64,000 nucleotides of DNA from Fluviicola chungangensis (GTDB lineage Bacteria > Bacteroidota > Bacteroidia > Flavobacteriales_D > Crocinitomicaceae). This document shows, in pieces, positions 37,691-51,022 of the stretch (the stretch's first letter is position 1; each line of letters begins with the position of its first letter). The notes under the pieces were generated by a model. The model searched no databases, was not told where the DNA came from, and saw only the letters and a list, made by a program, of their open reading frames with translations. The position numbers and the translations under genes are program-made. Location of the stretch: NCBI RefSeq assembly GCF_007558725.1, contig NZ_VLPL01000003.1, positions 248,001 through 312,000 on the forward strand. The letters are read 5' to 3'.

Positions 37691-38689
37691 ATGAATACAG
37701 GGAGAAAACGCATATTGATTACCGGTGCAGCCGGATTTTTGGGATCGCATTTATGTGATCGCTTTATCAAGGACGATTATCACGTGATCGCGATGGATAA
37801 TCTCATCACAGGACGACTGAAGAACATTGAACATTTGTTCCGGCTGGAGAATTTTGAATTCTACCACCACGACGTCTGCAAGTTCATCCATGTTCCCGGG
37901 AATTTGGATTATATCCTGCATTTTGCTTCACCTGCCAGCCCAATTGATTATTTAAAAATACCGATTCAGACCCTGAAAGTAGGGTCTTTGGGGATTCACA
38001 ATTGTTTGGGATTGGCCAGGGTAAAACATGCGCGCGTATTGATTGCAAGTACATCCGAAATTTATGGCGATCCGACGGTGCATCCGCAAACGGAAGACTA
38101 TTGGGGAAATGTGAATCCGGTAGGACCAAGGGGTGTTTACGACGAAGCGAAGCGTTTCCAGGAAGCCATTACGATGGCCTACCATACCTTTCACGGAGTT
38201 GAAACGCGGATTGTCCGCATATTTAATACTTATGGACCGCGCATGCGGTTGAACGACGGTCGTGTACTTCCCGCATTTATCGGGCAGGCATTGCGTGGTG
38301 AAGACCTGACCGTTTTTGGAGATGGTTCCCAAACGCGTTCGTTTTGTTACGTAGACGATTTAGTGGAAGGAATTGTGCGTTTGCTGCATAGCAACTGTGC
38401 TGATCCGGTGAATATCGGTAACCCGGATGAGATTACCATCAGCCAGTTTGCCGAAGAGATCATCAAATTGACCGGAACTACGCAGAAGGTCATTTACAAA
38501 GATCTTCCTGTAGACGACCCGAAACAACGTCAGCCGGACATTACCAAAGCACGGAAACTGTTGGATTGGGAACCGAAAATTGACCGGGCAGAAGGTTTGA
38601 AACGGACGTATGCGTATTTTAAGAGTTTAACCAAGGAGGAATTGTACCAATCGGATCACATTGATTTTGAGAAGTACATCGTTCGATAA
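37691..38689 (+). CDS. UDP-glucuronate decarboxylase (UDP-xylose synthase)
   Basis: A 332-residue extended [17 protein letters not shown] is the NAD-binding motif; [36 protein letters not shown] and [10 protein letters not shown] (YxxxK) mark the UXS family, as do [17 protein letters not shown] and [15 protein letters not shown]. It turns UDP-glucuronate into UDP-xylose in the cytoplasm, using the product of the dehydrogenase just upstream. This predicts xylose, or a sugar made from it, in the surface polysaccharide. Confidence 0.92.
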
Positions 38690-38699
38690 ATCCAACGAA

Positions 38700-39272
38700 A
38701 TGACAACCTATTTTGCACACGAAACAGCGGTAGTTGATCCCGGCTGTATCATTGGTGAAGGAACCAAGATCTGGCACTTTTCGCATATCATGCCGAATTG
38801 TGTGATCGGAGAACGCTGTAACATCGGTCAAAACGTCGTGGTTTCCCCGGAAGTGATTTTGGGAAACAATGTGAAAATCCAGAACAATGTTTCCATCTAC
38901 ACGGGAGTCATTTGTGAAGACGATGTATTCCTGGGGCCATCGATGGTTTTTACGAATGTCATGAATCCGCGTTCGGCTGTAAACCGGAGAGATCAGTATT
39001 CCCGGACGGTTGTACGGAAAGGTGCTTCCATCGGGGCAAATGCAACGATCGTTTGCGGAAATGATATCGGGGAATATGCCTTTATCGGTGCCGGATCCGT
39101 TGTAACGAAAGAAGTTCCGGCGTATGCCCTGGTTGTAGGGAATCCTGCGCGACAGATCGGATGGATGAGTGCTTTTGGTCACCGCTTGACTTTCGATGAA
39201 AACGGTTTTGCGGTTTGTCCGGAAAGCAATGAGCGCTACCAGTTGACGGATAACCGCGTGAAGGCAATTTGA
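38700..39272 (+). CDS. WbpD-like left-handed-beta-helix N-acetyltransferase
   Basis: A 190-residue protein from the ATG at 38700, 10 bp after the decarboxylase. It is built of hexapeptide repeats ([44 protein letters not shown]), forming the left-handed beta helix of LpxA-like acetyltransferases; [13 protein letters not shown] and [26 protein letters not shown] close it. WbpD acetylates the 3-amino group of UDP-GlcNAc(3NH2)A. The C-terminal segment ([12 protein letters not shown]) is a common extension in this family. A 36-bp palindrome follows the gene. Confidence 0.88.
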
Positions 39273-39287
39273 TTATAAATACACCAG

Positions 39288-39323
39288 ACCAGTAGGGGTG
39301 TAAAATTTTACACCCCTACTGGT
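39288..39323. terminator. 36-bp perfect loop-less palindrome, probable transcription terminator
   Basis: The two 18-base halves (ACCAGTAGGGGTGTAAAA and TTTTACACCCCTACTGGT) are exact reverse complements. It lies 15 bp after the acetyltransferase stop and is followed by TTAATAG, so it may end the first sugar operon. It could equally be a mobile intergenic palindrome. Confidence 0.6.
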
Positions 39324-39428
39324 TTAATAGCGCCCCTGGCGGTTATCGGTTTTTTGCCGGATTGCGTGCATTGAACGGAAGCGATTTCCGAATTTGCCTG
39401 ATACCACTTTATTCCAAGCAATTTTAAT

Positions 39429-39436
39429 TACTTTTG
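39429..39436 (+). promoter_or_regulatory. Putative -7 box of the WbpB/WbpA-like pair
   Basis: TACTTTTG fits TAnnTTTG and lies 40 bp before the ATG at 39477. The -33 element is poor (TTTA about 17 bp upstream). Confidence 0.4.
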
Positions 39437-39476
39437 GGCTTTGAAAATACCAGTCGATAACAGAGCATTATATAAT

Positions 39477-40517
39477 ATGATACCAGAAAACCAAAAAGTA
39501 AAGTTTGCCATTCTTGGGGCCGGACATATCGGGAAAAGACATGCTGAAATGGTGAGGAGAGACCCGGAAGCTGAACTGGTTGCAATGGTGGATGTTCGTT
39601 CCATGGAAGCATGTGCAGCTACAGATTTCAATGTTCCTTTCTTTGTTACGTTGGATGAATTACTGGCTTCGGGTATTGAGTTTGATGTCTTGAATGTATG
39701 TACTCCGAACGGATTGCATGCGGAACAAGCTTTGGCAGGACTCGAAAATAAAAAGCATGTGGTGGTGGAAAAACCGATGGGTTTAACGAAAGACCAGTGC
39801 GAAAAAGTCATCTTTAAATCCTTGCAGCAGTCCAAGCATGTTTTTTGTGTGATGCAAAACCGCTATTCTCCTCCGAGTGAATGGATCAAGAACCTGATCG
39901 AAAGCGGAACATTAGGAGACATCTTTATGGTCCAGTTGAATTGCTACTGGAACCGCGATGAACGTTATTACAAAGCAGGTGGCTGGAAAGGGACCAAGGA
40001 CCTGGACGGCGGGACTTTGTTTACACAGTTTTCCCATTTCATAGACATCATGTATTGGTTGTTCGGGGATATCGACCATATTCAGGGGAAATTTGCGGAT
40101 TTCACGCACAAAGATTCCACTGATTTTGAAGATTCGGGATTTGTGAGCTTTGATTTTGTAAACGGTGGAATGGGATGTATCAATTATTCAACTGCCGTGG
40201 CAGATCGCAACCTGGAAAGTTCCATGACTATCATCGGAAGGAACGGAAGCGTGAAAATCGGCGGGCAGTATATGAACGAAGTGGAAGTGTGCAACATTCC
40301 GGGATATGAAATGCCCGAACTGGCACCTACTAATCCCGGAAATGATTACGGAGCTTACAAAGGTTCCGCGGCAAATCATCATTATGTAATCACCAACGTG
40401 ATTGACACTTTGAAAGGAAGAACTTCTGCTACCACCAATGCTTTGGAAGGGTTGAAAGTGGTAGAGATTATTGAACGCATTTATAAGGTAAGAAATGAGC
40501 AGCTTAATTTACAATAA
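39477..40517 (+). CDS. Gfo/Idh/MocA oxidoreductase (WbpB-like)
   Basis: A 346-residue protein from the ATG at 39477; an in-frame TTG at 39441 lies nearly on top of the -7 box and is less likely. The Rossmann motif AILGAGHIGKRHAEMV, the VEKPMG motif (about 97-102) and the VMQNRYSPPSEWI block fit the family. WbpB oxidises C3 of UDP-GlcNAcA to the 3-keto form, which the WbpE-like enzyme then aminates. It overlaps the WbpA-like gene by 23 bp, showing translational coupling. Confidence 0.86.
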   Translation: MIPENQKVKFAILGAGHIGKRHAEMVRRDPEAELVAMVDVRSMEACAATDFNVPFFVTLDELLASGIEFDVLNVCTPNGLHAEQALAGLENKKHVVVEKPMGLTKDQCEKVIFKSLQQSKHVFCVMQNRYSPPSEWIKNLIESGTLGDIFMVQLNCYWNRDERYYKAGGWKGTKDLDGGTLFTQFSHFIDIMYWLFGDIDHIQGKFADFTHKDSTDFEDSGFVSFDFVNGGMGCINYSTAVADRNLESSMTIIGRNGSVKIGGQYMNEVEVCNIPGYEMPELAPTNPGNDYGAYKGSAANHHYVITNVIDTLKGRTSATTNALEGLKVVEIIERIYKVRNEQLNLQ

Positions 40518-41796
40518 ATTAGTAGCAAAAGAAGCGAAACTGGCAGTGATCGGTTTGGGATATGTCGGACTTCCGATTGCATTGGAATTTGCAAAGAAGA
40601 TCCGGGTGGTTGGGTTTGATATCAACCAGGGGAGAGTTGACATGATGCGCAACAAAAAAGATCCGAGCAACGAATTGGAAACCACTGCCTTTGATGGTTG
40701 TGATATTCATTTCACCTCCGACATCAATGATCTGAAAGACGTTCAATTCTACATTGTGGCAGTTCCTACTCCGATTGATGATGCAAACCTTCCGGATCTG
40801 AGACCGCTTTTGGGAGCTTCCAAAACAGTTGCCCAGGTATTGAAAAAAGGAGATTACGTGGTGTTCGAATCAACCGTTTATCCCGGATGTACGGAAGAAG
40901 ACTGTATCCCGGTTTTGGAAGAAATCTCCGGGTTGAAATTCAAAGCAGATTTCAAAGTGGGTTATTCACCGGAGCGAATTAATCCGGGAGACAAGGAACA
41001 CACACTTCAAAATGTAGTGAAAGTCGTTTCCGGATGCTGTGAAGAATCCCTGGAAGAAATAGCAAAGACTTACGAGTTGGTGGTAGGTGCCGGAGTTCAC
41101 CGTGCCACTTCCATCAAAGTGGCTGAAGCTGCCAAAATCATTGAAAATACGCAGCGTGACGTCAATATTGCCTTGATCAACGAATTGTCGATCATCTTTA
41201 ATCGCTTGGGGATCAATACTTACGATGTCCTGGAAGCTGCGGGTACCAAATGGAATTTCCTGCGGTTTTCCCCTGGTTTGGTGGGCGGACACTGCATTGG
41301 AGTCGATCCGTACTACCTGACACACAAGGCACAGCAAGCAGGATATCATGCGAAGATCATCAACAGCGGCCGTTATGTGAATGATTCCATGGGCTTTTAC
41401 ATCGGGAAACAAACAGTGAAGAAAATCATCGCTCAGGGAAAACACATCCAGGAGGCGAAAGTATTGGTAATGGGAGCGACTTTCAAAGAAGATGTTTCCG
41501 ACATCCGAAATTCCAAGGTCATTGATGTGGTGAATGAGCTGAAATCTTTCCAGGTAAAGGTAGATTTGGTCGATCCGCATGCGTCTTCCGGCGAAATGGA
41601 ACACGAGTACGGAGTCGGTTTGGTCGAAATCGGGAAAAATTACGATGCAATTATTGTTGCGGTTAATCATAAGAACTACAAGAACCTGGATGAAACCTAT
41701 TTCAAATCTTTGATGAAGGACAATCAGGGTGTTTTTGTTGATATAAAGGGAATTTATAAAGGAAAAATCAAAGACCTGGAATATTGGAGTTTGTAG
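40495..41796 (+). CDS. Nucleotide sugar 6-dehydrogenase (WbpA-like, UDP-GlcNAc type)
   Basis: A 433-residue enzyme. It shows VIGLGYVGLPIALEFAKK, VAVPTPIDDANLPDL, STVYPGCTEEDC and the active-site cysteine in GLVGGHCIGVDPYYLTHKAQ. This form, with GGHCIGVDPYYL, is typical of WbpA/TviB-like dehydrogenases acting on UDP-GlcNAc, distinct from the Ugd at 36373 (GGSCFPKD). It supplies UDP-GlcNAcA for the WbpB, WbpE and WbpD steps. A terminator hairpin lies 57 bp past the stop. Confidence 0.88.
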   Translation: MSSLIYNKLVAKEAKLAVIGLGYVGLPIALEFAKKIRVVGFDINQGRVDMMRNKKDPSNELETTAFDGCDIHFTSDINDLKDVQFYIVAVPTPIDDANLPDLRPLLGASKTVAQVLKKGDYVVFESTVYPGCTEEDCIPVLEEISGLKFKADFKVGYSPERINPGDKEHTLQNVVKVVSGCCEESLEEIAKTYELVVGAGVHRATSIKVAEAAKIIENTQRDVNIALINELSIIFNRLGINTYDVLEAAGTKWNFLRFSPGLVGGHCIGVDPYYLTHKAQQAGYHAKIINSGRYVNDSMGFYIGKQTVKKIIAQGKHIQEAKVLVMGATFKEDVSDIRNSKVIDVVNELKSFQVKVDLVDPHASSGEMEHEYGVGLVEIGKNYDAIIVAVNHKNYKNLDETYFKSLMKDNQGVFVDIKGIYKGKIKDLEYWSL

Positions 41797-41853
41797 CGGA
41801 TCTAACAGGTTCAAATGTGATTTTGGTCCGGTGAACAGTTCTGATGTTAAAAT

Positions 41854-41880
41854 AAAAACGGCTTGTCCGTTTTTTTGTTT
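41854..41880 (+). terminator. Rho-independent terminator of the sugar-nucleotide operon
   Basis: AAAAACGG pairs with CCGTTTTT around a 5-nt loop and runs into a T tract. It also abuts the direct repeat at 41878-41899, which controls the next gene. Confidence 0.8.
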
Positions 41881-41899
41881 TGTCCCGCTTTTGTCCCGC
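41878..41899 (+). promoter_or_regulatory. Tandem 11-bp direct repeat, candidate operator A
   Basis: TTTTGTCCCGC occurs twice in a row with no gap, so the copies are one helical turn apart, followed by CTAAT. It ends 21 bp before a perfect -7 box and 57 bp before the start codon, where an activator would sit. A near copy lies upstream of the other cargo gene at 46201-46220. Confidence 0.6.
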
Positions 41900-41920
41900 T
41901 AATTTAAAGCAACGTTCATC

Positions 41921-41928
41921 TACTTTTG
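41921..41928 (+). promoter_or_regulatory. Putative -7 box of the first cargo gene
   Basis: TACTTTTG fully matches TAnnTTTG. There is no TTTG at the -33 position; the direct repeat ends there instead, which suggests an activator-dependent promoter. Confidence 0.5.
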
Positions 41929-41955
41929 GAGTTTATACTTTAAAGGTACAGAACA

Positions 41956-44301
41956 ATGAAATTCCCAAAATGCACTTATTTGGTTAAACTCGGGTTTTTA
42001 ATTCCGCTGGTCCTTGCTTTCAATGGCCTGTCTCAGTGCAGCGGAATGATTACTCCAGTTAATCTGGGGCCGGATACCACCTTGTGTACCGGGCAGACCA
42101 TCACACTGAATGCGTCAACAACGGGCCCATACGATTCGTACAAATGGAATAACAACTCCACAGCCGCGACCCGGTTTGTTACCAGTGCAGGAACCTACAG
42201 TGTAAAAGTAGGAAAGCTTGGAAGCAACCTGATCGTAAACGGTGATTTTGAATCAGGCAATACCGGCTTTACAACCGGTTATACCATTGGAACAGGTGGA
42301 AGCTGGGGTTTGCTATCTTTGGCAGGAACATATCTCGTTACAACCAACCCGTCACTTGCTCACAGCAATTTTATGTCCTGTACAGATCATACGGCAGCAC
42401 CCGGAACGCAAATGATGGTGGTAAATGGTGCTGGAACAGCAGGAACCAATGTGTGGTGCCAAACCGTGGCAGTGGATGGAAACACTGATTACCAGTTCAG
42501 TGCCTGGGCTTCCAATGCCTTGAATAATCCAAGCGTTGCACAGTTGCAGTTCTCGATCAACGGTTCACCGATCGGGACGGTGTTTTCAACCCAAACAATC
42601 GGCTGTTCCTGGCAGCAATTTTTTCAAACCTGGAATTCCGGACTGAACAGCTCTGCGCAAATTTGTGTATTGAGCCAGAACCTGATCGATGATGGAAATG
42701 ACTTCATGCTGGACGACCTTAGCTTTAAACCGATTTGCTATTCTTACGATACCGTGGTGGTTACATACAGTACGTTCCCTTCTGTGAACCTGGGAGCGGA
42801 TACGACCATTTGTGAAGGTTCCATGCTGGTTTTGGATGCACAAAATCCGGGTTGTACTTACCTCTGGGATGATGGTACAACGAACCAAACCCTGGATGTT
42901 ACTGCCACGGGAACGTACCAGGTAACGGTGAAAAATGCAGCTCAATGTGCCAAAACGGATGCGATCACCGTTACAGTTGAGAATCAGAAACATGCCGGAA
43001 ACGACAGTTTGGCGGTTTGGTGTGAAACCAATGGAGTTGTGAATCTGAACAACCTGCTTTCTGCGGGAAGCACCGCGGGAGGAAGCTGGACGGATTTGAA
43101 TAATGGCCTGGGAACGAATTTAACTTCGGGCGGACAATTGACCGTAAACGGAGCAATCGGTTCGAACCAACTGGAATACGTGGTGTTCGGAACCTATTGT
43201 CCGAATGATACCAGCCGCTTCCAAATCAAAGTAAACAGTCAGCCCATAGGAGTTAACCCGACCAGTCTGCATCTGTGCAATTCCTCCGGATCAACAGTGG
43301 ATTTGGATCAGTATACCACGGGAGCATTCCAGACATTGGCATCGTATTGGACAGAGACTTCAGGATTTCCGACCAATCAGTTTGACGCTGCAACAGGCGT
43401 GTTGGACTTGTCTCTTTTGGCTAATGGGAATTACGAGTTTGCTTACGTTTTACCCGCAGACACCCTGTGTGTGAATGATACGGTAAAAGTGACGATTCAG
43501 ATTACTGAAAATCCCATTATTGCTTTTTCGTCGGATGTGGTCAAAGGATGTTTTCCTCTGGACGTTCAGTTTCTGAATGAAAGTACGGCAAATCCGGGTT
43601 CCATTGTTGCGTGGGATTTGGGAGATGGTACCCTTTCTTCAAATAACTCGATTGTCACCCATCAGTATACCGGAATTGATTGTTTCGATGTAACGCTAAC
43701 CATTACAGCGGATAATTTGTGTACGACCAGCAAGACGATCCCGGATATGATTTGTGTGGATCCATTACCCGTTGCCAGCTTTAATTACAATCCGCAACAA
43801 GTTTTTTCCATTGATCCGACTACTAATTTTGAGAACACTTCTTCATTCAACGATCAGAATCTCTGGAGTTTTGATGATGGTACGACTTCTGACCAGGTAA
43901 GCCCGACACACCAGTTTCCTATCGGGCAGATCGGGAACTACCATGTGGAATTGATCGTGATCTCTGATCAGGGTTGCCGGGATACCACTTACCGGATCGT
44001 TGTTGTGAGAGACCAGATGATCTTCTACGTTCCGAATACGTTTACTCCGGACGGAGACGAGCACAACCATATTTTCCTTCCAATCATGACCGCCGGATTT
44101 TCCCCTGCAAGTTACGAGTTCTATGTTTACAACCGCTGGGGAGAATTGCTCTTTGAGTCGAGAGACACACAAGTGGGTTGGGATGGCACTTACGCCGGTG
44201 GAATGTCCCAAACAGGATTGTATACCTGGATCATTCGTTTCAAAGACGATGATAACGACGAAAAATTTGAATTTTCGGGGCATGTAAATTTGATGAAGTA
44301 G
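41956..44301 (+). CDS. Secreted T9SS type B protein with Ig-like, carbohydrate-binding-like and PKD domains
   Basis: A 781-residue protein with a signal peptide ending near GLSQC (residues 1-25). An Ig-like module opens with GPDTTLCTGQTITLNAS (about 35-85). Residues 92-265 look like a CBM4/9-type sandwich (LIVNGDFESGNTGF to DFMLDDLSF). Another Ig-like module (GADTTICEGSMLVLDA) follows, then two PKD domains (about 515-690; WDLGDGTLSS, WSFDDGTTS) and a CHU_C/type B sorting domain (VPNTFTPDGDEHNH, YNRWGELLFES). It should be exported by the T9SS to the surface. Its upstream region carries operator-like repeat A, shared with the gene at 46287. Ligand and role are unknown. Confidence 0.85.
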   Translation: MKFPKCTYLVKLGFLIPLVLAFNGLSQCSGMITPVNLGPDTTLCTGQTITLNASTTGPYDSYKWNNNSTAATRFVTSAGTYSVKVGKLGSNLIVNGDFESGNTGFTTGYTIGTGGSWGLLSLAGTYLVTTNPSLAHSNFMSCTDHTAAPGTQMMVVNGAGTAGTNVWCQTVAVDGNTDYQFSAWASNALNNPSVAQLQFSINGSPIGTVFSTQTIGCSWQQFFQTWNSGLNSSAQICVLSQNLIDDGNDFMLDDLSFKPICYSYDTVVVTYSTFPSVNLGADTTICEGSMLVLDAQNPGCTYLWDDGTTNQTLDVTATGTYQVTVKNAAQCAKTDAITVTVENQKHAGNDSLAVWCETNGVVNLNNLLSAGSTAGGSWTDLNNGLGTNLTSGGQLTVNGAIGSNQLEYVVFGTYCPNDTSRFQIKVNSQPIGVNPTSLHLCNSSGSTVDLDQYTTGAFQTLASYWTETSGFPTNQFDAATGVLDLSLLANGNYEFAYVLPADTLCVNDTVKVTIQITENPIIAFSSDVVKGCFPLDVQFLNESTANPGSIVAWDLGDGTLSSNNSIVTHQYTGIDCFDVTLTITADNLCTTSKTIPDMICVDPLPVASFNYNPQQVFSIDPTTNFENTSSFNDQNLWSFDDGTTSDQVSPTHQFPIGQIGNYHVELIVISDQGCRDTTYRIVVVRDQMIFYVPNTFTPDGDEHNHIFLPIMTAGFSPASYEFYVYNRWGELLFESRDTQVGWDGTYAGGMSQTGLYTWIIRFKDDDNDEKFEFSGHVNLMK

Positions 44302-44461
44302 GAACTTTCAGCCCAAATACCGGGAAGATTACTCAACGATTACTACAGCAAACTCAAAGCTGAAAGGAAAGAAGGTTGCCCCGGAACAAGCATTCTTGGC
44401 GCGAACAGTGCTTTCATTAGTGTTGCATTGCTTACAGCCTGCGGAAGTGAAGTTCTCCCTG

Positions 44462-44493
44462 TTTTTCTCTAAGGAGGAAATAGGTTACATTTG
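44462..44493 (+). promoter_or_regulatory. Putative promoter of the TPR/HTH regulator gene
   Basis: TTTTT at 44462-44466, 19 bp, then TACATTTG at 44486-44493, a full -7 match. It gives a short leader of about 20 nt before the TTG start at 44520. Confidence 0.5.
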
Positions 44494-44519
44494 TACAGTT
44501 ACCCCTAGAAGAAAACACG

Positions 44520-46148
44520 TTGAAACAAATTTGCTATCACTTAATTCCCATAATCGTTGCTTGCGTTTTGAGTCCTTTCTCCTTCGGAGGGATGTTGAAC
44601 TCAGAGCGGGGAATAGCAAAAATTATTTCAGAAAACGAACATAAGGGGACTTCCTTTATTCAACTGTTTGAAAATTACCAGCAGGCAGATTTTTCAAGCC
44701 CTGCAGAATGGAACCGGTTCCTGAAAAAATTGTGTAAAGAGGACAAAATTACGGAACGGGCAGATTACCCTGAATTGTGTTATGTTATTGGCCGGCGGTT
44801 ATCCGATGGGCAGAAGTACCGGGAAGCCTATTATTTTTTATACGTCACGTTGCGGGAAGAAACGGATGTTTATACTTCTCAAAAACCCTATCTCGCTCTT
44901 TTTCACGAAACATTAGGTCAATTATACTATTTCTTCAGAAGGTACGATCTCTCGGAAAAGCATTTGAAAATTTCCTTGCATCGCTCCCATGTTTCAGAGG
45001 AAAGTAAGATCAAATTATACAATACGCTGAGTTTGATCTACCGGGATAAACTGGACAATAAAACTTCCGAATGGTATTTGCGAAAAGCATACAAACAGGC
45101 TGTAAAATTAAAAGATGAAACCTGGATGGGGATCTTGTCGGGAAACCTGGGATATATTGCGTTGTCAAAAAAGGAGAACGCAAAGGCAAGAAAGCTGATC
45201 CAGTTTGATTATGAAGTCAGTGCCAAGAGCAATCAGACCAATAGTCAGATTAATGCGCTGGCTTTGTTGATTGAGTTGGACCTGATGGAGAACAAACTGG
45301 CACAATCGACCCGGAAGATGAAACTATTTGACAGTCTGATGAAGCATGAGACAAACCCTCAGTTGTGGGGAACGTTTTACCAAACTAAAATTAATTATTA
45401 CGAGAAACTGGGCCGGTATGAGATGGCCCTGAAAAGTTTCCGGAAATTCATTTCCTACAAGGAAATCAACGATGAAAAAAGGCAATTTATCAATATACAG
45501 AACGCCGAATTCCAAATCGAGTTTGAACGAAAGCAGGGAGAAAATACCATTTACAAGGAAAAGAAGAAAACAGACGACCTGATTATCTCGGGCTTGTTTG
45601 TCATCTGCCTTATTTTAGGATTGACCAGTTTCATTATTATCAAGCAAATTCAGCGTAAGCGGAAACAGGATAAAGAACTATTGACCCTGCGTGCCCAGAA
45701 AATGGAGGATGAGCTTCATGCGACAGAACGGGAAATGCGCGCTTTGCTTTCAACCATGTTTGATAAAAACAAAGTTATCTTCGAATTACAGGAGCAGGTT
45801 GAATCCTTTGAAAAAAATCAACATTCCAAAACGGATTCGGAGAAAGAGGCGATGCTGAATGATCTGCAGTCTTTTTCATTATTGACAGAAACCGATTGGA
45901 TCGAGTTCAAGCGTTTGTTTGAAAAATTAAATCCGGGATTTTTTGGTTTCTTCCAGGATAACTTTCCGGAGATAACGGCAGCTGAAATCCGTTTGGCGGC
46001 ATTAATTAAGTTGAATTTATCGAATTTGGAGATGGCCCGGACCCTTGCAATTTCTCCCGACTCCGTGAGAAAGACCAATCTGCGTCTTCGCAAAAAGCTG
46101 AACATTGAATCCCTGGACGACTTGACGCGGTTTATCAAGGCTATTTAG
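44520..46148 (+). CDS. Membrane-anchored TPR / LuxR-type HTH transcriptional regulator
   Basis: A 542-residue protein with a TTG start; the next methionine comes only after the signal-like segment (IIVACVLSPFSFG). Residues about 60-330 are TPR-like helix pairs (YREAYYFLYVTL, YLRKAYKQAVKL, YEMALKSFRKFI). One membrane helix (about 354-374, GLFVICLILGLTSFIII) is followed by a coiled coil and a C-terminal HTH (about 486-535, AAEIRLAALIKLNLSNLEMA, then ISPDSVRKTNLRLRKKL). The layout predicts a periplasmic TPR sensor joined to a cytoplasmic DNA-binding domain, a class frequent in Bacteroidota. It sits between two T9SS cargo genes with matching upstream repeats and is their best candidate regulator; that link is inference. 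Confidence 0.82.
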   Translation: MKQICYHLIPIIVACVLSPFSFGGMLNSERGIAKIISENEHKGTSFIQLFENYQQADFSSPAEWNRFLKKLCKEDKITERADYPELCYVIGRRLSDGQKYREAYYFLYVTLREETDVYTSQKPYLALFHETLGQLYYFFRRYDLSEKHLKISLHRSHVSEESKIKLYNTLSLIYRDKLDNKTSEWYLRKAYKQAVKLKDETWMGILSGNLGYIALSKKENAKARKLIQFDYEVSAKSNQTNSQINALALLIELDLMENKLAQSTRKMKLFDSLMKHETNPQLWGTFYQTKINYYEKLGRYEMALKSFRKFISYKEINDEKRQFINIQNAEFQIEFERKQGENTIYKEKKKTDDLIISGLFVICLILGLTSFIIIKQIQRKRKQDKELLTLRAQKMEDELHATEREMRALLSTMFDKNKVIFELQEQVESFEKNQHSKTDSEKEAMLNDLQSFSLLTETDWIEFKRLFEKLNPGFFGFFQDNFPEITAAEIRLAALIKLNLSNLEMARTLAISPDSVRKTNLRLRKKLNIESLDDLTRFIKAI

Positions 46149-46200
46149 TGTAATTTATCATGCTTGAAAGCTCAACCGTTAAGCATTTCACAGAATATTG

Positions 46201-46220
46201 TTTGTCCCCTTTTTGTCTCA
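46201..46220 (+). promoter_or_regulatory. Tandem repeat, candidate operator B
   Basis: TTTGTCCC and TTTTGTCTC recur 11 bp apart and are followed by CTAAT. Aligned with operator A (41878-41903), 21 of 26 positions agree. It lies 67 bp before the start codon at 46287; a loose -7 box TAAGTTAG is at 46253-46260, one helical turn further away than in copy A. Confidence 0.55.
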
Positions 46221-46286
46221 CTAATCATTTAGTAAAAACAGTGCGTTCTTCATAAGTTAGCCTAAAAATAAACTTATCATAATCTT

Positions 46287-49200
46287 ATGAAGAAACTTAC
46301 AACTTTCAAAATGAGGAATCGATCGGCTTCCAGAAATCTCGTGTTGGGATTGATGCTATCGATGGGTTCTTTGTTGGCCTTTGGTCAAACAATTACCACC
46401 TCCATTGGAACCGGGACAAATACCAGTTCAAATATTCCGATTACTTCTTACTATGGTTATTCTTATTCTCAGCAAATTTACCTGGCATCTGAAATGGATC
46501 CGGGAGTTCAGGGACAACTGAATAGCATCACCAAGATTCGTTTTTATTATGCTTCCGGGTCGGTGACAAATTCGGATAACTGGACAATTTATATGGGAAG
46601 TACGAATCAAACAAGTTTTTCTTCCAATACAAACTGGATTCCTTCGACTGCTATGAGCCAGGTGTTTTCCGGAACAGTTACTTTTCCGGCAGCCGGAAAC
46701 TGGATGGAAATTACACTAACAACCCCATTCCAGTGGAATGGGCTTAGCAACGTTGTTATTGCGGTAGATGAGAACCAAGGAAGTTATTCTGCTTCTGACG
46801 GATATTGGAGGTCTCAATCAACTTCAGGAACACGCGCAATCTTTTACAGAAATGATAGTACGAATCCGGATCCTGCTTCACCTCCAACTGCAACCGGTTT
46901 AATCTCGGCAGTTTCCCAGGTTCAAATCGTGCATGAATTAGCTCCGGCTTGTTCCGCAGCTCCGGATCACGCTACTGCCGTTAGCTCTGTTTCTACTATT
47001 TGTTCGAACAGTCCGACACCTGTAAATTTATCCATTACAGGATCTACTTTTGCAACGGGATTGGGTTATCAATGGCAGTACAATGATGGTTCAGGATGGG
47101 TTGATTATCCCGCAGGAACGACTCAGGATTTCTCTGTTTTTCCACAACAAACTGTAAACGTTCATTTGATTACAACATGTATTGCTACCGGCGATGAAGA
47201 TATTTCGGAGGAAGCTTCGATCAGTGTAAATCCTGCACCGACTGTTGCTGCAGACAATGCAGCATTGGCATATTGTTCCGGATCTCCGGCACAAGTAGTT
47301 GCTACAGGTGCATCCACTTATGCCTGGTCGCCTGCCACCGGATTGAACGTAACAAACAACGATACCGTTATTGCGAACCCTACAAACTCCACTGTTTATA
47401 GTGTTGTAGGAACAGATATCATGGGATGTAAAGATACCGCCATGGTTACCATTACTCCGATAAACAAAATTACACGTACAGCAACTTACTCACCGACCAC
47501 ACTTTGTACACCGGGGACTGCTGTAACAGTTACAGCAACTGCTGCTCCTGCTACCATCTTCGGAGGAGGAGCTTACGAGTACAAGTTTATGGATGCAAAC
47601 GGAGCTGTTCTGCAAGATTGGAGTGCTTCCAGCACGTACAATTTCACTCCTGCTGCTGACAGCATTTACAAAATATATGCTGATTTCAGATCAAACACGT
47701 GCCCGGATGCAATTGATTCCATTTCGACTTCCATTGTTGTTGGATTCGGTGCAAACGTTGCAGTGGTAGATTATGATTGTATTAACTTAGGTGGTACGGT
47801 TACTTTGAGCTCTATTTTCGGTCAAACCAATACGGAGACTGTTTACACGAACCCATTTGCTGCTCCTACAGATGTTACAGCAGGGATCGTTACCTTAGGT
47901 GGAAGTGCTGCAATTACTGCGGGAAGAGCAGTTTTGACTCCTTCTGCAACGGGCATCAACGGTTCATTGACAATCAACGATCCGGCTTTCCATACCGGAT
48001 TGAATAACGCGATGACTGTTTCCTTTAAAATGACAGCAGACCAACCGATCAACAATTATGGTACCGGAGGTGCTGACGGGATTTCTTATTCTTTCGGGAA
48101 CGACGTGACTGCGACCGGAAATCAAAACGGAACGGGGTCTAAATTGAGACTTTCTTTCGATGCGAATGACAACAGCCCGAACATTGCGGGAATCTATTTA
48201 GGGTATAACGTAACGGGGACACTTTCGCCTGCAGGTGCAGGAACGTTGATCCATGTAGGGAATATCGCTTTGTGGAAATTGAAGCAGGACGTGCCGGTTG
48301 TATTGACAATTGATCCGAACGGAAAAGCTAGTTTGACTGTTGACGGAACAACTGTATTTGAGAACGTTCAAATGCCGGCAGCATACATGAATGCAAACAC
48401 TGCAGGTTGGAAACACGTATTCGGTGCTGCAACCGGTGGTGATGCGATGAGACAAGCGATTAAAGATGTGTTGATCACAGCTCCTTCTTTGGATTTTGCA
48501 TTTGTTCCTGCAACTACAACTCCAACTGCATGGGGGTCTGCAAGTACATTTACGAATGTTCAGCCTGGAACATACGATGTATGGATCAGCAGTAACGGAT
48601 CTGCTTCTTGTGCGAAGAAAATCGAGACTGTGGAGATCGTAAATACCAATCCATTGGTTTTACTTGGAAACGACACGACCATCTGTGAAGGAGAATCATT
48701 GACTTTGGATGCAGGGAATGCAGGAGCGACTTATGTGTGGAGTAACTCTCAAATCACCACTCAAACACGCATAGTTACACAGCCAGGTCCATACGTAGTA
48801 AATGTAACTGCACCTAACGGATGTGTCGGGGTTGGTTCTATCAATGTGGATGTAATGGGAGCTCCAACAGCTTCGACGATCTATGTTCAAAACAACATGC
48901 CGACGTATACATTCACTATTTTGAACCCACAAAATGCGAACCAGTATTCCTGGGATTTCGGTGACGGGACAACAATTGCAAACGCACCGGGAACAGTATC
49001 TCATACGTATTTGACAGCAGGTCCGAGACAAGTATCCGTTACTTTGACCAATGAATGTGGTACGGAAACGGTCATTGCAACAGTAGTGGTAACAAGTACT
49101 GCAGGTCTTGAAACAAATGCAATCGATGGATTGAACGTATACCCGAACCCTGCTAACGAGTTCGTAACGGTTGAATTGCCGTCTGCAACACAAGCTATCG

Positions 49201-49355
49201 GTTCCCTATTCACTATGGCCGGATCTTTGGTCAGAACGATCGACAGTTTTACAGCTAAAACAGAAGTATCGGTTGCTGACCTGACACCGGGAGTATATTT
49301 CTTACACATTCAAAGTGAGGATAAAACGAGTGTGATCAAGTTAGTAGTGGAATAA
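46287..49355 (+). CDS. Secreted T9SS type A protein with lectin-like and PKD domains
   Basis: A 1022-residue protein. Signal peptide to about residue 33 (LLAFGQ). Residues 35-225 form a sandwich domain found in Bacteroidota surface proteins (SQQIYLASEM, VVIAVDENQGSY). Ig-like modules follow; about 498-735 resemble an L-type lectin/LamG fold (VSFKMTADQPINNYG, GGADGISYSFG, LTIDPNGKASLTVDG). A GNDTTICEGESLTLDAG module, a PKD domain (YSWDFGDGTT) and a type A sorting domain end it (LNVYPNPANEFVTVEL, LTPGVYFLHIQSED). It should be T9SS-exported and may bind glycans. Operator-like repeat B is upstream; a strong terminator follows. Confidence 0.87.
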   Translation: MKKLTTFKMRNRSASRNLVLGLMLSMGSLLAFGQTITTSIGTGTNTSSNIPITSYYGYSYSQQIYLASEMDPGVQGQLNSITKIRFYYASGSVTNSDNWTIYMGSTNQTSFSSNTNWIPSTAMSQVFSGTVTFPAAGNWMEITLTTPFQWNGLSNVVIAVDENQGSYSASDGYWRSQSTSGTRAIFYRNDSTNPDPASPPTATGLISAVSQVQIVHELAPACSAAPDHATAVSSVSTICSNSPTPVNLSITGSTFATGLGYQWQYNDGSGWVDYPAGTTQDFSVFPQQTVNVHLITTCIATGDEDISEEASISVNPAPTVAADNAALAYCSGSPAQVVATGASTYAWSPATGLNVTNNDTVIANPTNSTVYSVVGTDIMGCKDTAMVTITPINKITRTATYSPTTLCTPGTAVTVTATAAPATIFGGGAYEYKFMDANGAVLQDWSASSTYNFTPAADSIYKIYADFRSNTCPDAIDSISTSIVVGFGANVAVVDYDCINLGGTVTLSSIFGQTNTETVYTNPFAAPTDVTAGIVTLGGSAAITAGRAVLTPSATGINGSLTINDPAFHTGLNNAMTVSFKMTADQPINNYGTGGADGISYSFGNDVTATGNQNGTGSKLRLSFDANDNSPNIAGIYLGYNVTGTLSPAGAGTLIHVGNIALWKLKQDVPVVLTIDPNGKASLTVDGTTVFENVQMPAAYMNANTAGWKHVFGAATGGDAMRQAIKDVLITAPSLDFAFVPATTTPTAWGSASTFTNVQPGTYDVWISSNGSASCAKKIETVEIVNTNPLVLLGNDTTICEGESLTLDAGNAGATYVWSNSQITTQTRIVTQPGPYVVNVTAPNGCVGVGSINVDVMGAPTASTIYVQNNMPTYTFTILNPQNANQYSWDFGDGTTIANAPGTVSHTYLTAGPRQVSVTLTNECGTETVIATVVVTSTAGLETNAIDGLNVYPNPANEFVTVELPSATQAIGSLFTMAGSLVRTIDSFTAKTEVSVADLTPGVYFLHIQSEDKTSVIKLVVE

Positions 49356-49432
49356 TAAACGAATTAAACGCAATTATCGAATTAATGTAGTAATTGTTCG
49401 GTAATTTTTTAGGTATAATCTCAGTTTAGAAG

Positions 49433-49462
49433 GGTGGTTTGTCTCGGCAGACCACCTTTTTT
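49433..49462 (+). terminator. Rho-independent terminator of the second cargo gene
   Basis: GGTGGTTTGT pairs with GCAGACCACC (two G-U pairs) around a 4-nt loop, followed by six T. Confidence 0.88.
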
Positions 49463-49492
49463 GTTGGTAGTGTTATCAATAATCACCTGAGT

Positions 49493-49785
49493 ATGAATTG
49501 CCACTATTGTAACGAACGCTGTATCCGAAAAGGAAAACAAAAGACTGTTTATTTCAACCTTACTTTTATCTGATGCAAAACAAATCACAACAGACAAGCT
49601 GAATATCTACAAAGAACTCATACCAATCCAGAATGCATTCAACCAAAAACAGAGGGATCAATCACATCGAACGGCAAAACCTCACTTTAAGAACGCACAT
49701 AAAGCGTCTGAACCGACGAACGATTTGTTATTCGAAATCACTAGCCATGTTGCTGGCTGTTGTGAAGATTTATTTTTGGGGATAA
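49493..49785 (+). pseudogene. Remnant of an IS1-family transposase (InsA/InsB)
   Basis: An ATG at 49493 opens MNCHYCNERCIRKGKQK, the cysteine-rich zinc-finger start of IS1 InsA, and stops after about 25 codons. Further on, the frame TTDKLNIYKELIP (about 49590-49630), then after a frameshift HSTKNRGINHIER and TLRTHIKRLNRRT with YFWG-stop at 49785 reproduce the C-terminal half of InsB. The catalytic centre between them is deleted. It is a non-functional footprint between the cargo gene and rfbB. No clear terminal inverted repeats or target duplication were identified. Confidence 0.78.
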
Positions 49786-49963
49786 TTCTCAATCGTGAGA
49801 AATCGGGTAGTTTTTGGTGGTTTTGATTGGTGATAAATTCGTGGCACGAGTCGTTACTAAAGCAGACTTCCAGTCGCTATCGTCTTCAAGACGCGCGCCA
49901 GCTTTATTTATGTGCTTATCCTCGCGCTCATTCTCATTCTGATTTGTTATTTTTACTTCTTGT

Positions 49964-51022
49964 ATGACAACACAAAAACAGATACTGGTAACAGGCGGCG
50001 CAGGATTCATCGGATCGCATGTGGTTCGCCTGTTGGTAAACAACTATCCGGCTTACCAAATCATCACGTTTGATTCCTTGACGTATGCAGGAAACCTGTC
50101 CAATTTGAAGGACGTAATGGATGCAAAAAATCACACTTTTTTCAAAGGGGATATTACTTCTGAGCAGGATGTGAAAGCGGCATTTGAACAGCATCAGATC
50201 ACAGATGTGATCCATTTGGCTGCAGAATCGCATGTGGACCGTTCCATTGAAGGGCCGATGGAATTTGTGCATACCAATGTGGTGGGTACCGTCAACCTCA
50301 TGAACCAGGCAAGGGCTTCCTGGAAAGAATTGGACGGACACATTTTTTACCATGTTTCCACCGATGAAGTATTCGGATCGTTGGGCGATGAAGGATTTTT
50401 TACGGAAACAACACCGTATGATCCGAGAAGCCCGTATTCTGCCTCCAAAGCTGCTTCCGACCACTTTGTTTCTGCCTATTATCATACGTACGGTTTCCCG
50501 GTGAAACGGTCGAATTGTTCCAATAATTACGGTAGCAACCATCATCCGGAAAAACTCATCCCGTTGATGATCAATAATATCCTGAACAAAAAACCATTGC
50601 CGGTTTACGGGGAAGGAATCAATGTACGGGATTGGTTGTGGGTAGAAGATCATGCACGGGCAATTGACGTGATCTTTCACCACGGAGAAATCGGGTGTAA
50701 CTACAACATCGGTGGCTGGAATGAGTGGCGAAACATTGACCTGATCCACGAGCTCTGTAAAATCATGGACGAAGAACTGGAACGAAAACCCGGGGAAAGT
50801 GCCGAACTGATTACGTATGTAAAAGACCGTGCGGGACACGATTTGCGTTATGCCATCGACGCAACCAAATTGTTCGATGAATTGGGCTGGAAGCCAAGTA
50901 TTACCTTTGAGGAAGGTCTTAGAAATACGGTGATCTGGTACCTCAATAACCAGGATTGGGTCAAAGAAGTAACCTCCGGAGCATACCAGGATTATTACAA
51001 AAACATGTATAACCAGCGCTAA
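49964..51022 (+). CDS. rfbB: dTDP-glucose 4,6-dehydratase
   Basis: A 352-residue extended SDR of normal length. It shows VTGGAGFIGSHVVRLL, HLAAESHVDRSIEGP, HVSTDEVFGSLG, the YSASKAASDHFV motif (YxxxK) and RSNCSNNYGSNHHPEKLIP. It converts dTDP-glucose to dTDP-4-keto-6-deoxyglucose, the substrate of the RfbC epimerase at 28543. The pathway is thus split across the window, and rfbA and rfbD must lie elsewhere. It is 2 bp from the phosphatase gene. Confidence 0.95.
   Translation: MTTQKQILVTGGAGFIGSHVVRLLVNNYPAYQIITFDSLTYAGNLSNLKDVMDAKNHTFFKGDITSEQDVKAAFEQHQITDVIHLAAESHVDRSIEGPMEFVHTNVVGTVNLMNQARASWKELDGHIFYHVSTDEVFGSLGDEGFFTETTPYDPRSPYSASKAASDHFVSAYYHTYGFPVKRSNCSNNYGSNHHPEKLIPLMINNILNKKPLPVYGEGINVRDWLWVEDHARAIDVIFHHGEIGCNYNIGGWNEWRNIDLIHELCKIMDEELERKPGESAELITYVKDRAGHDLRYAIDATKLFDELGWKPSITFEEGLRNTVIWYLNNQDWVKEVTSGAYQDYYKNMYNQR

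Follow-up and report, generated by a model that had tools for sequence, protein, structure and literature searches.

The stretch analysed here (hereafter the window) is 64 kb of the genome of Fluviicola chungangensis, and carries a three-gene module whose members, all on the forward strand, are cargo B, then the regulator, then cargo A (Table 1). Cargo B and cargo A are predicted substrates of the type IX secretion system (T9SS), on the strength of sorting domains that exceed their curated cut-offs (TIGR04131, type B, 41.9 bits against a cut-off of 35; TIGR04183, type A, 42.4 bits against 23), and the gene between them encodes a protein with tetratricopeptide repeats (TPR) and a helix-turn-helix (HTH) domain. 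A sequence-only reading of this DNA had proposed that the three genes, together with a tandem repeat ahead of each cargo gene, form a self-contained module of membrane sensor, operator pair and two secreted surface proteins; here we set out what became of that proposal.

Table 1. Coordinates of the module and associated features within the window (aa, amino acids; bp, base pairs; Ig, immunoglobulin)
Feature	Position	Strand	Description
Terminator-like hairpin	41854..41874	+	3' of the sugar-dehydrogenase gene; T run abuts the first repeat
Cargo B operator TTTTGTCCCGCTTTTGTCCCGCTAAT	41878..41903	+	TTGTC at 41880-41884 and 41891-41895, 11-bp step
Cargo B -7 box TACTTTTG	41921..41928	+	Perfect; 25 bp past the second TTGTC
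Cargo B	41956..44301	+	781 aa; Ig/PKD-like domains and type B T9SS sorting domain
-7 box TACATTTG upstream of the regulator gene	44486..44493	+	Perfect; without tandem operator
Regulator	44520..46148	+	542 aa; signal-peptide-like segment, TPR, predicted membrane helix, coiled-coil, LuxR-like HTH
Lys518 codon, recognition helix	46071..46073	+	Residue covarying with the base after TTGTC
Cargo A operator GTTTGTCCCCTTTTTGTCTCACTAAT	46200..46225	+	TTGTC at 46202-46206 and 46213-46217, 11-bp step
Cargo A -7-like box TAAGTTAG	46253..46260	+	5 of 6; 35 bp past the second TTGTC
Cargo A	46287..49355	+	1022 aa; multi-domain beta-sandwich, L-type-lectin-like domain, type A T9SS sorting domain

Tandem repeats ahead of the cargo genes

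The repeats are real and go beyond chance. The two copies match at 21 of 26 positions, as the sequence-only reading had it. Nowhere else in the window is the match better than 18 of 26. The end of the second TTGTC lies 60 bp from the ATG of cargo B and 69 bp from that of cargo A. A single half-site, TTTTGTCYC, is unremarkable (three in the window, 2.3 expected). The exact pair, TTTGTCYC-N3-TTTGTCYC with zero mismatches, occurs at two places only in the 4,269,709-base genome, ahead of cargo B and cargo A; random scatter through the 4.27 Mb, which the earlier proposal had named as fatal to itself, is thus not what is seen. Another three places appear once two mismatches are allowed; only the exact pair is informative, because at that level the reversed control becomes the commoner of the two (15 places against 5). 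Sorting domains over cut-off number at least 150 of type A (150 scored of 238 candidates) and 43 of type B in this genome, and the exact operator marks just the two cargo genes on either side of the regulator.

An orthologous regulator is present in nine of the 14 genomes of our Fluviicola sample (this one and eight others at 71-85% identity); of the other five, three have divergent regulators (36-39%), and in two none was found at that level. The gene order is retained in all nine, three of which add a second tandem cargo A, and step-11 TTGTC pairs stand upstream of both cargo genes in every one; conservation in relatives, another of the grounds on which the proposal had offered to fall, is therefore upheld. 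Within the alignments the operator cores are invariant in 9/9 rows, with 47/162 and 60/157 columns unchanged overall.

The arrangement TTGTC-N6-TTGTC is also found upstream of T9SS cargo genes across the family Crocinitomicaceae. In 40 loci of the regulator, which total 487,721 bases and include duplicates of one record, TTGTC pairs with a step of 11 occur 62 times, and no other step between 6 and 59 occurs more than six times. From 56 sites we dropped seven that lay inside a gene, had no gene downstream or were more than 200 bp from it; for the 49 retained, the median distance from site to ATG is 68 bp, with 42 sites at 47-78 bp. Sorting domains were sought at E<=0.001 in the last 130 residues of 43 downstream genes, a number reached by counting the L076 gene once for its two sites, scanning L160 apart, and setting aside the cargo A gene of L047, two genes of L054 (broken draft-contig frames) and the regulator gene of L058. 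This gave 29 type A and 15 type B matches, one gene (in L072) matching both types, such that all 43 are covered if this is the sole overlap; ten genes checked singly all matched.

Sites unlinked to a regulator gene also precede T9SS cargo, at L142, L143/L160, L144 and L152; the other 16 of the 20 off-module loci gave no clear support, as judged from printed ends of open reading frames only. The description of the module as ‘self-contained’ consequently holds for this genome, but has to be loosened for other genera, which have the same operator before unlinked T9SS cargo too.

Distance from operator to -7 box

The -7 element of Flavobacterium psychrophilum promoters, TAnnTTTG, has been located at -12 to -5 (PMC9723704), and the boxes ahead of our two cargo genes match this sigma-A consensus of Bacteroidota perfectly (cargo B) or at 5 of 6 positions (cargo A). 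For geometry we took 52 sites, namely the 49 retained and three unlinked ones (L142-L144), and grouped them into 32 clusters at 55% identity over 60 downstream bases. A box matching at five or more of six positions lies 34-36 bp after the second TTGTC in 21 of these clusters, against a mean of 1.26 and a maximum of 5 over 2000 shuffles, and in another two it lies at 24-26 bp. The Fluviicola cargo-B sites belong to the shorter class, with a box at 24-25 bp in 9/9. The spacings of cargo A and cargo B differ by 10 bp, that is, one helical turn, which places the operators at about -63 to -48 (A) and -53 to -38 (B).

The sequence-only reading had put the cargo B repeat in the -33 place before a perfect -7 box. 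The box is indeed perfect, but the repeat is placed farther upstream than that, its distance from the box being fixed. We rejected the repeat as a conserved -33 box, given that its last TTTG ends 27 bp (B) or 37 bp (A) before the -7 box and that TTG with the 17-23 bp spacer of a normal -33 element is found in one of the 23 clusters that have a -7 box. Two side observations concern the same promoters: the stretch TTTAGTAAAA at 46228-46237 (about -37 to -28), downstream of the cargo A operator, is identical in nine genomes, and some promoters elsewhere have three TTGTC-like sites in 11-bp steps (L072:4902-5094; L076:8442-8468).

Regulator, recognition helix and cargo proteins

In the AlphaFold model of the regulator (mean predicted local distance difference test score, pLDDT, 85.7), TPR-like helices run to residue 297 and form a superhelix over residues 28-297; there follows a single long helix (300-432) spanning a hydrophobic stretch at about 355-374, the predicted membrane helix, and a helical HTH domain (457-541) with helices at 487-497, 502-509, 513-526 and 532-541. 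The TPR part, which filled the fold-search lists, is closest in fold to RapI, LGN, NprR and MalT domain III, several of which bind peptides. As for the HTH domain, 13 of 17 relatives match Pfam GerE at E<=1 (best 9.8e-5), and the top hit of a sequence search against solved structures was a designed protein (E 6e-4).

The regulator and the operator keep company across genomes. Using a threshold of E<=1e-35 for the regulator and the pattern TTGTCYYNNNTTTGTCYY for the operator, we found the former in 25 and the latter in 45 of 240 family genomes, and both together in 21 (Fisher p 4e-14, as against 6e-4 for the reversed control, an association that probably reflects genome size; these p-values overstate independence, genomes and sites being related). 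Genomes with the regulator hold 47 matches to TTGTCYYNNNTTTGTCYY, with 14 for the control, and in those without it the pattern is at chance level (29 against 40). A retained pair is present in the fetched locus for 27 of 29 regulators scanned; the 30th regulator of the tree, L185, was outside the site scan. Cultured relatives with a version of the regulator include Brumimicrobium glaciale, B. mesophilum and Lishizhenia tianjinensis.

The recognition helix in the window is SVRKTNLRLRKK, and its residue 518 covaries with the base that follows TTGTC. Where this residue is Lys, the base (C/T) is other than G in 80 of 82 half-sites, and where it is Arg the base is G in 9 of 12; on the regulator tree the Lys/Arg label requires three changes, two of which are forced by well-supported branches. 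A search for the GG-type operator TTGTCGGNNNTTTGTCGG, devised after the Lys/Arg pattern had been seen, gave four hits (one in the control), confined to 3/240 genomes (G001, G008 and G012), those whose regulators include one Arg clade. One of the four was a new, unlinked site in G012; its -7 box, at 34 bp, is perfect, and a T9SS type A gene follows. Outside the family, the single case of L198 has Gln at the place equivalent to 518 and A after TTGTC in both half-sites.

As a separate observation, a paralogous regulator accompanies the ortholog in G001 and G008, where it has a GG-type operator of its own together with a T9SS cargo gene of about 995 aa (L060, L061, L056). This looks like an insulated second copy of the switch; G012 carries the GG-type regulator only.

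The cargo proteins are probably adhesins. The model of cargo A (pLDDT 83.2; predicted template modelling score, pTM, 0.46, such that the domain arrangement is uncertain) includes a domain resembling the lectin domains of ERGIC-53 and Emp46p (Foldseek TMt 0.61-0.68), without a Pfam lectin match; the model also matches SraP, YwfG and the grappling-hook protein of Aureispira. In cargo B there are PKD/Ig-like domains, and a carbohydrate-binding family is matched weakly (CBM_4_9, E 0.012). It is also short in the window (781 aa) and in G007 (782 aa), both lacking an N-terminal part of about 390 aa found in seven other Fluviicola genomes (1171-1177 aa); residue 30 of the window protein aligns to residue 421-425 in the six longer versions compared.

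A proposed local switch, its alternatives and its reach

Synthesising the above, we propose, at a probability of roughly 0.8, that the TPR/HTH protein spans the membrane and works as a one-component activator of its two flanking T9SS cargo genes, acting through the tandem operator. A periplasmic TPR superhelix would sense a signal, perhaps a peptide; the cytoplasmic LuxR-like HTH domains of two subunits would bind TTGTC-N6-TTGTC on one face of the DNA; and the bound regulator would recruit sigma-A RNA polymerase to the -7 box lying 35 bp (A) or 25 bp (B) downstream, the outcome being joint switching of two secreted surface proteins. This is, in essence, the arrangement of regulator, operator pair and flanking cargo that the sequence-only reading had suggested, now strongly supported by conservation, exclusive placement of the exact pair in this genome, the 240-genome association and covariation, and with the -33 placement withdrawn.

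Several observations weigh against this proposal, besides the relatedness of the genomes already mentioned. In nine of the 32 clusters a -7 box is missing at both distances, and the missing -33 motif is no proof of activator dependence, because F. johnsoniae promoters are reported generally to lack a recognisable one anyway (PMC7366714). The HTH domain falls below threshold for Pfam GerE (18.4 bits, cut-off 23.5), and its best natural counterpart among solved structures, EsrB (LuxR type), reaches only E 0.13. The fetched loci of L062 and L086 are without a retained pair, and in L055 cargo B alone has one. The specificity pattern also has its exceptions: two Lys half-sites carry G; the Arg-type L058 has one C/G site and, ahead of its own gene, a C/T site; and the other two Arg regulators, those of G020 and G051, lie outside the GG pattern TTGTCGGNNNTTTGTCGG, with C/G and G/G sites (TTGTCCGACC-TTTGTCGG and TTGTCGTGTG-TTTGTCGT). 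At the unlinked G012 site the ATG follows 51 bp downstream, only 9 bases past the box. Finally, a composite pattern run over 395 genomes of the phylum gave eight hits (in seven genomes) against nine for the control, with no overall enrichment.

Could the operator be real and the TPR/HTH protein repress from it? Regulators can work either way, and only 25 bp separate the end of the B site from its -7 box; most sites, however, stand clear of the box by 34-36 (or 24-25) bp and in helical phase, a spacing that is the usual geometry of activators, and we consider repression unlikely. Less credible again, and to our minds a slim prospect, is that some other, unlinked regulator or an alternative sigma factor binds the repeat, with the TPR/HTH gene a mere bystander. 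Such a scheme has a precedent in Porphyromonas, where T9SS genes are activated by the extracytoplasmic function (ECF) sigma factor SigP (PMC5005315), and the pairing of our regulator with the operator is read from sequence; yet it sits poorly with their co-occurrence and covariation, with a -7 box of sigma-A type, and with the finding that four of the eight phylum-wide hits (L198, L199, L200 and L201) have a TPR-HTH gene within 1 kb, such proximity having a rough background of 1.4% of bases (20 loci). We give next to no credence to a chance or low-complexity likeness of T-rich promoter DNA, aided by the hairpin's T run, as the chance-level half-site, the two-mismatch pair that is no commoner than its control and the T run abutting the first copy are set against exact pairs at two places only, their persistence in nine genomes (three of them hairpin-free) and a sharp step and -7 distance. 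The hairpin itself is seen in six of the nine aligned Fluviicola rows, the window's included, and a terminator artefact was rejected on the grounds that L051-L053 lack it and keep the repeat.

How far the proposed activator code extends is a more speculative matter. Two further phylum hits, L203 and L205, both from other families, are upstream of T9SS cargo, and L204 lies 2.8 kb from a TPR-HTH gene; L202 has no such gene nearby in its locus, and the genes that follow the L198, L199 and L200 sites gave no T9SS domain match. These neighbourhoods alone suggest that some of the hits are real. The code is patchy in Flavobacterium, where 19 loci hold relatives of the G762 regulator and 3 of them, the seed itself included, have the step-11 pair, and where the two closest orthologs (68% and 67%) have no pair on the side examined. 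A general code across the phylum is therefore a possibility and not a result. With rather more doubt than belief, we speculate that Bacteroidota might hold a large and so far undescribed class of one-component regulators, TPR-HTH proteins of the membrane, with one operator code in common. In this code TTGTC would stand twice at a distance of one turn, 35 bp ahead of a sigma-A -7 box, and one residue of the recognition helix would set specificity (Lys for C/T, Arg for G, perhaps Gln for A). Their Rap-like periplasmic TPR domains might then hear peptides, possibly ones released in T9SS secretion, such that adhesin genes would track secretion or kin signals. If the code did extend to many Bacteroidota TPR-HTH genes, targets of a little-characterised regulator class would become predictable.

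Among known systems, MalT of E. coli combines TPR with a LuxR-type HTH and uses direct-repeat operators, and is a cytoplasmic protein with an ATPase domain; the regulator described here differs in having a predicted membrane helix and no matched ATPase domain. The Rap/NprR (RNPP) peptide sensors are also among the closest. The sole NCBIfam match of the regulator at E<=0.001 is to the BT3442 family (NF053779; residues 196-533), at 25.6 bits against a cut-off of 940, and it is thus a distant relative and not a member. The SusR-like proteins (Bacteroides BT3705 and paralogs), compared by their published description, are likewise membrane one-component activators with a periplasmic sensor, a cytoplasmic DNA-binding domain and predicted direct-repeat operators whose two sites share one DNA face; their motifs, though, are 67 or 77 bp apart and serve polysaccharide utilisation, whereas here the step is 11 bp, before T9SS cargo (PMC3878776). 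PorXY-SigP similarly controls transcription in a T9SS context, through an ECF factor acting on T9SS genes, in contrast to a local regulator, individual cargo genes and boxes of sigma-A type (PMC5005315). Our searches of open-licence PubMed Central papers gave no description of this module and none of a switch acting locally on single T9SS cargo genes; the T9SS regulation that we did find there targets the secretion machinery (SigP; PMC5005315). The local regulator and its operator, the geometry of the promoters and a candidate residue for specificity were all obtained from the letters of the DNA, and are directly testable.

Regarding the surroundings, the gene 5' of cargo B in the window encodes a nucleotide-sugar dehydrogenase, and a 433-aa open reading frame (matched by length only) lies upstream of cargo B in eight of the nine Fluviicola genomes, the L047 contig stopping at that point. 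The RNA structure of both cargo leaders is unremarkable (z -1.4 and -1.0), and default thresholds gave no tRNA genes in the window and no Rfam families in 38000-50000. Boxes similar to the one ahead of the regulator gene were also seen upstream in L046, L049 and L052. Past the tandem second cargo A of L049, L051 and L052 there is a gene of 723-725 aa whose end is type-B-like; the 140 bases 5' of it hold no tandem operator. Lastly, CP034120.1 (L070), which bears the module at 74% identity, is titled Glaciecola amylolytica, which is a proteobacterial genus name, and looks mislabelled.
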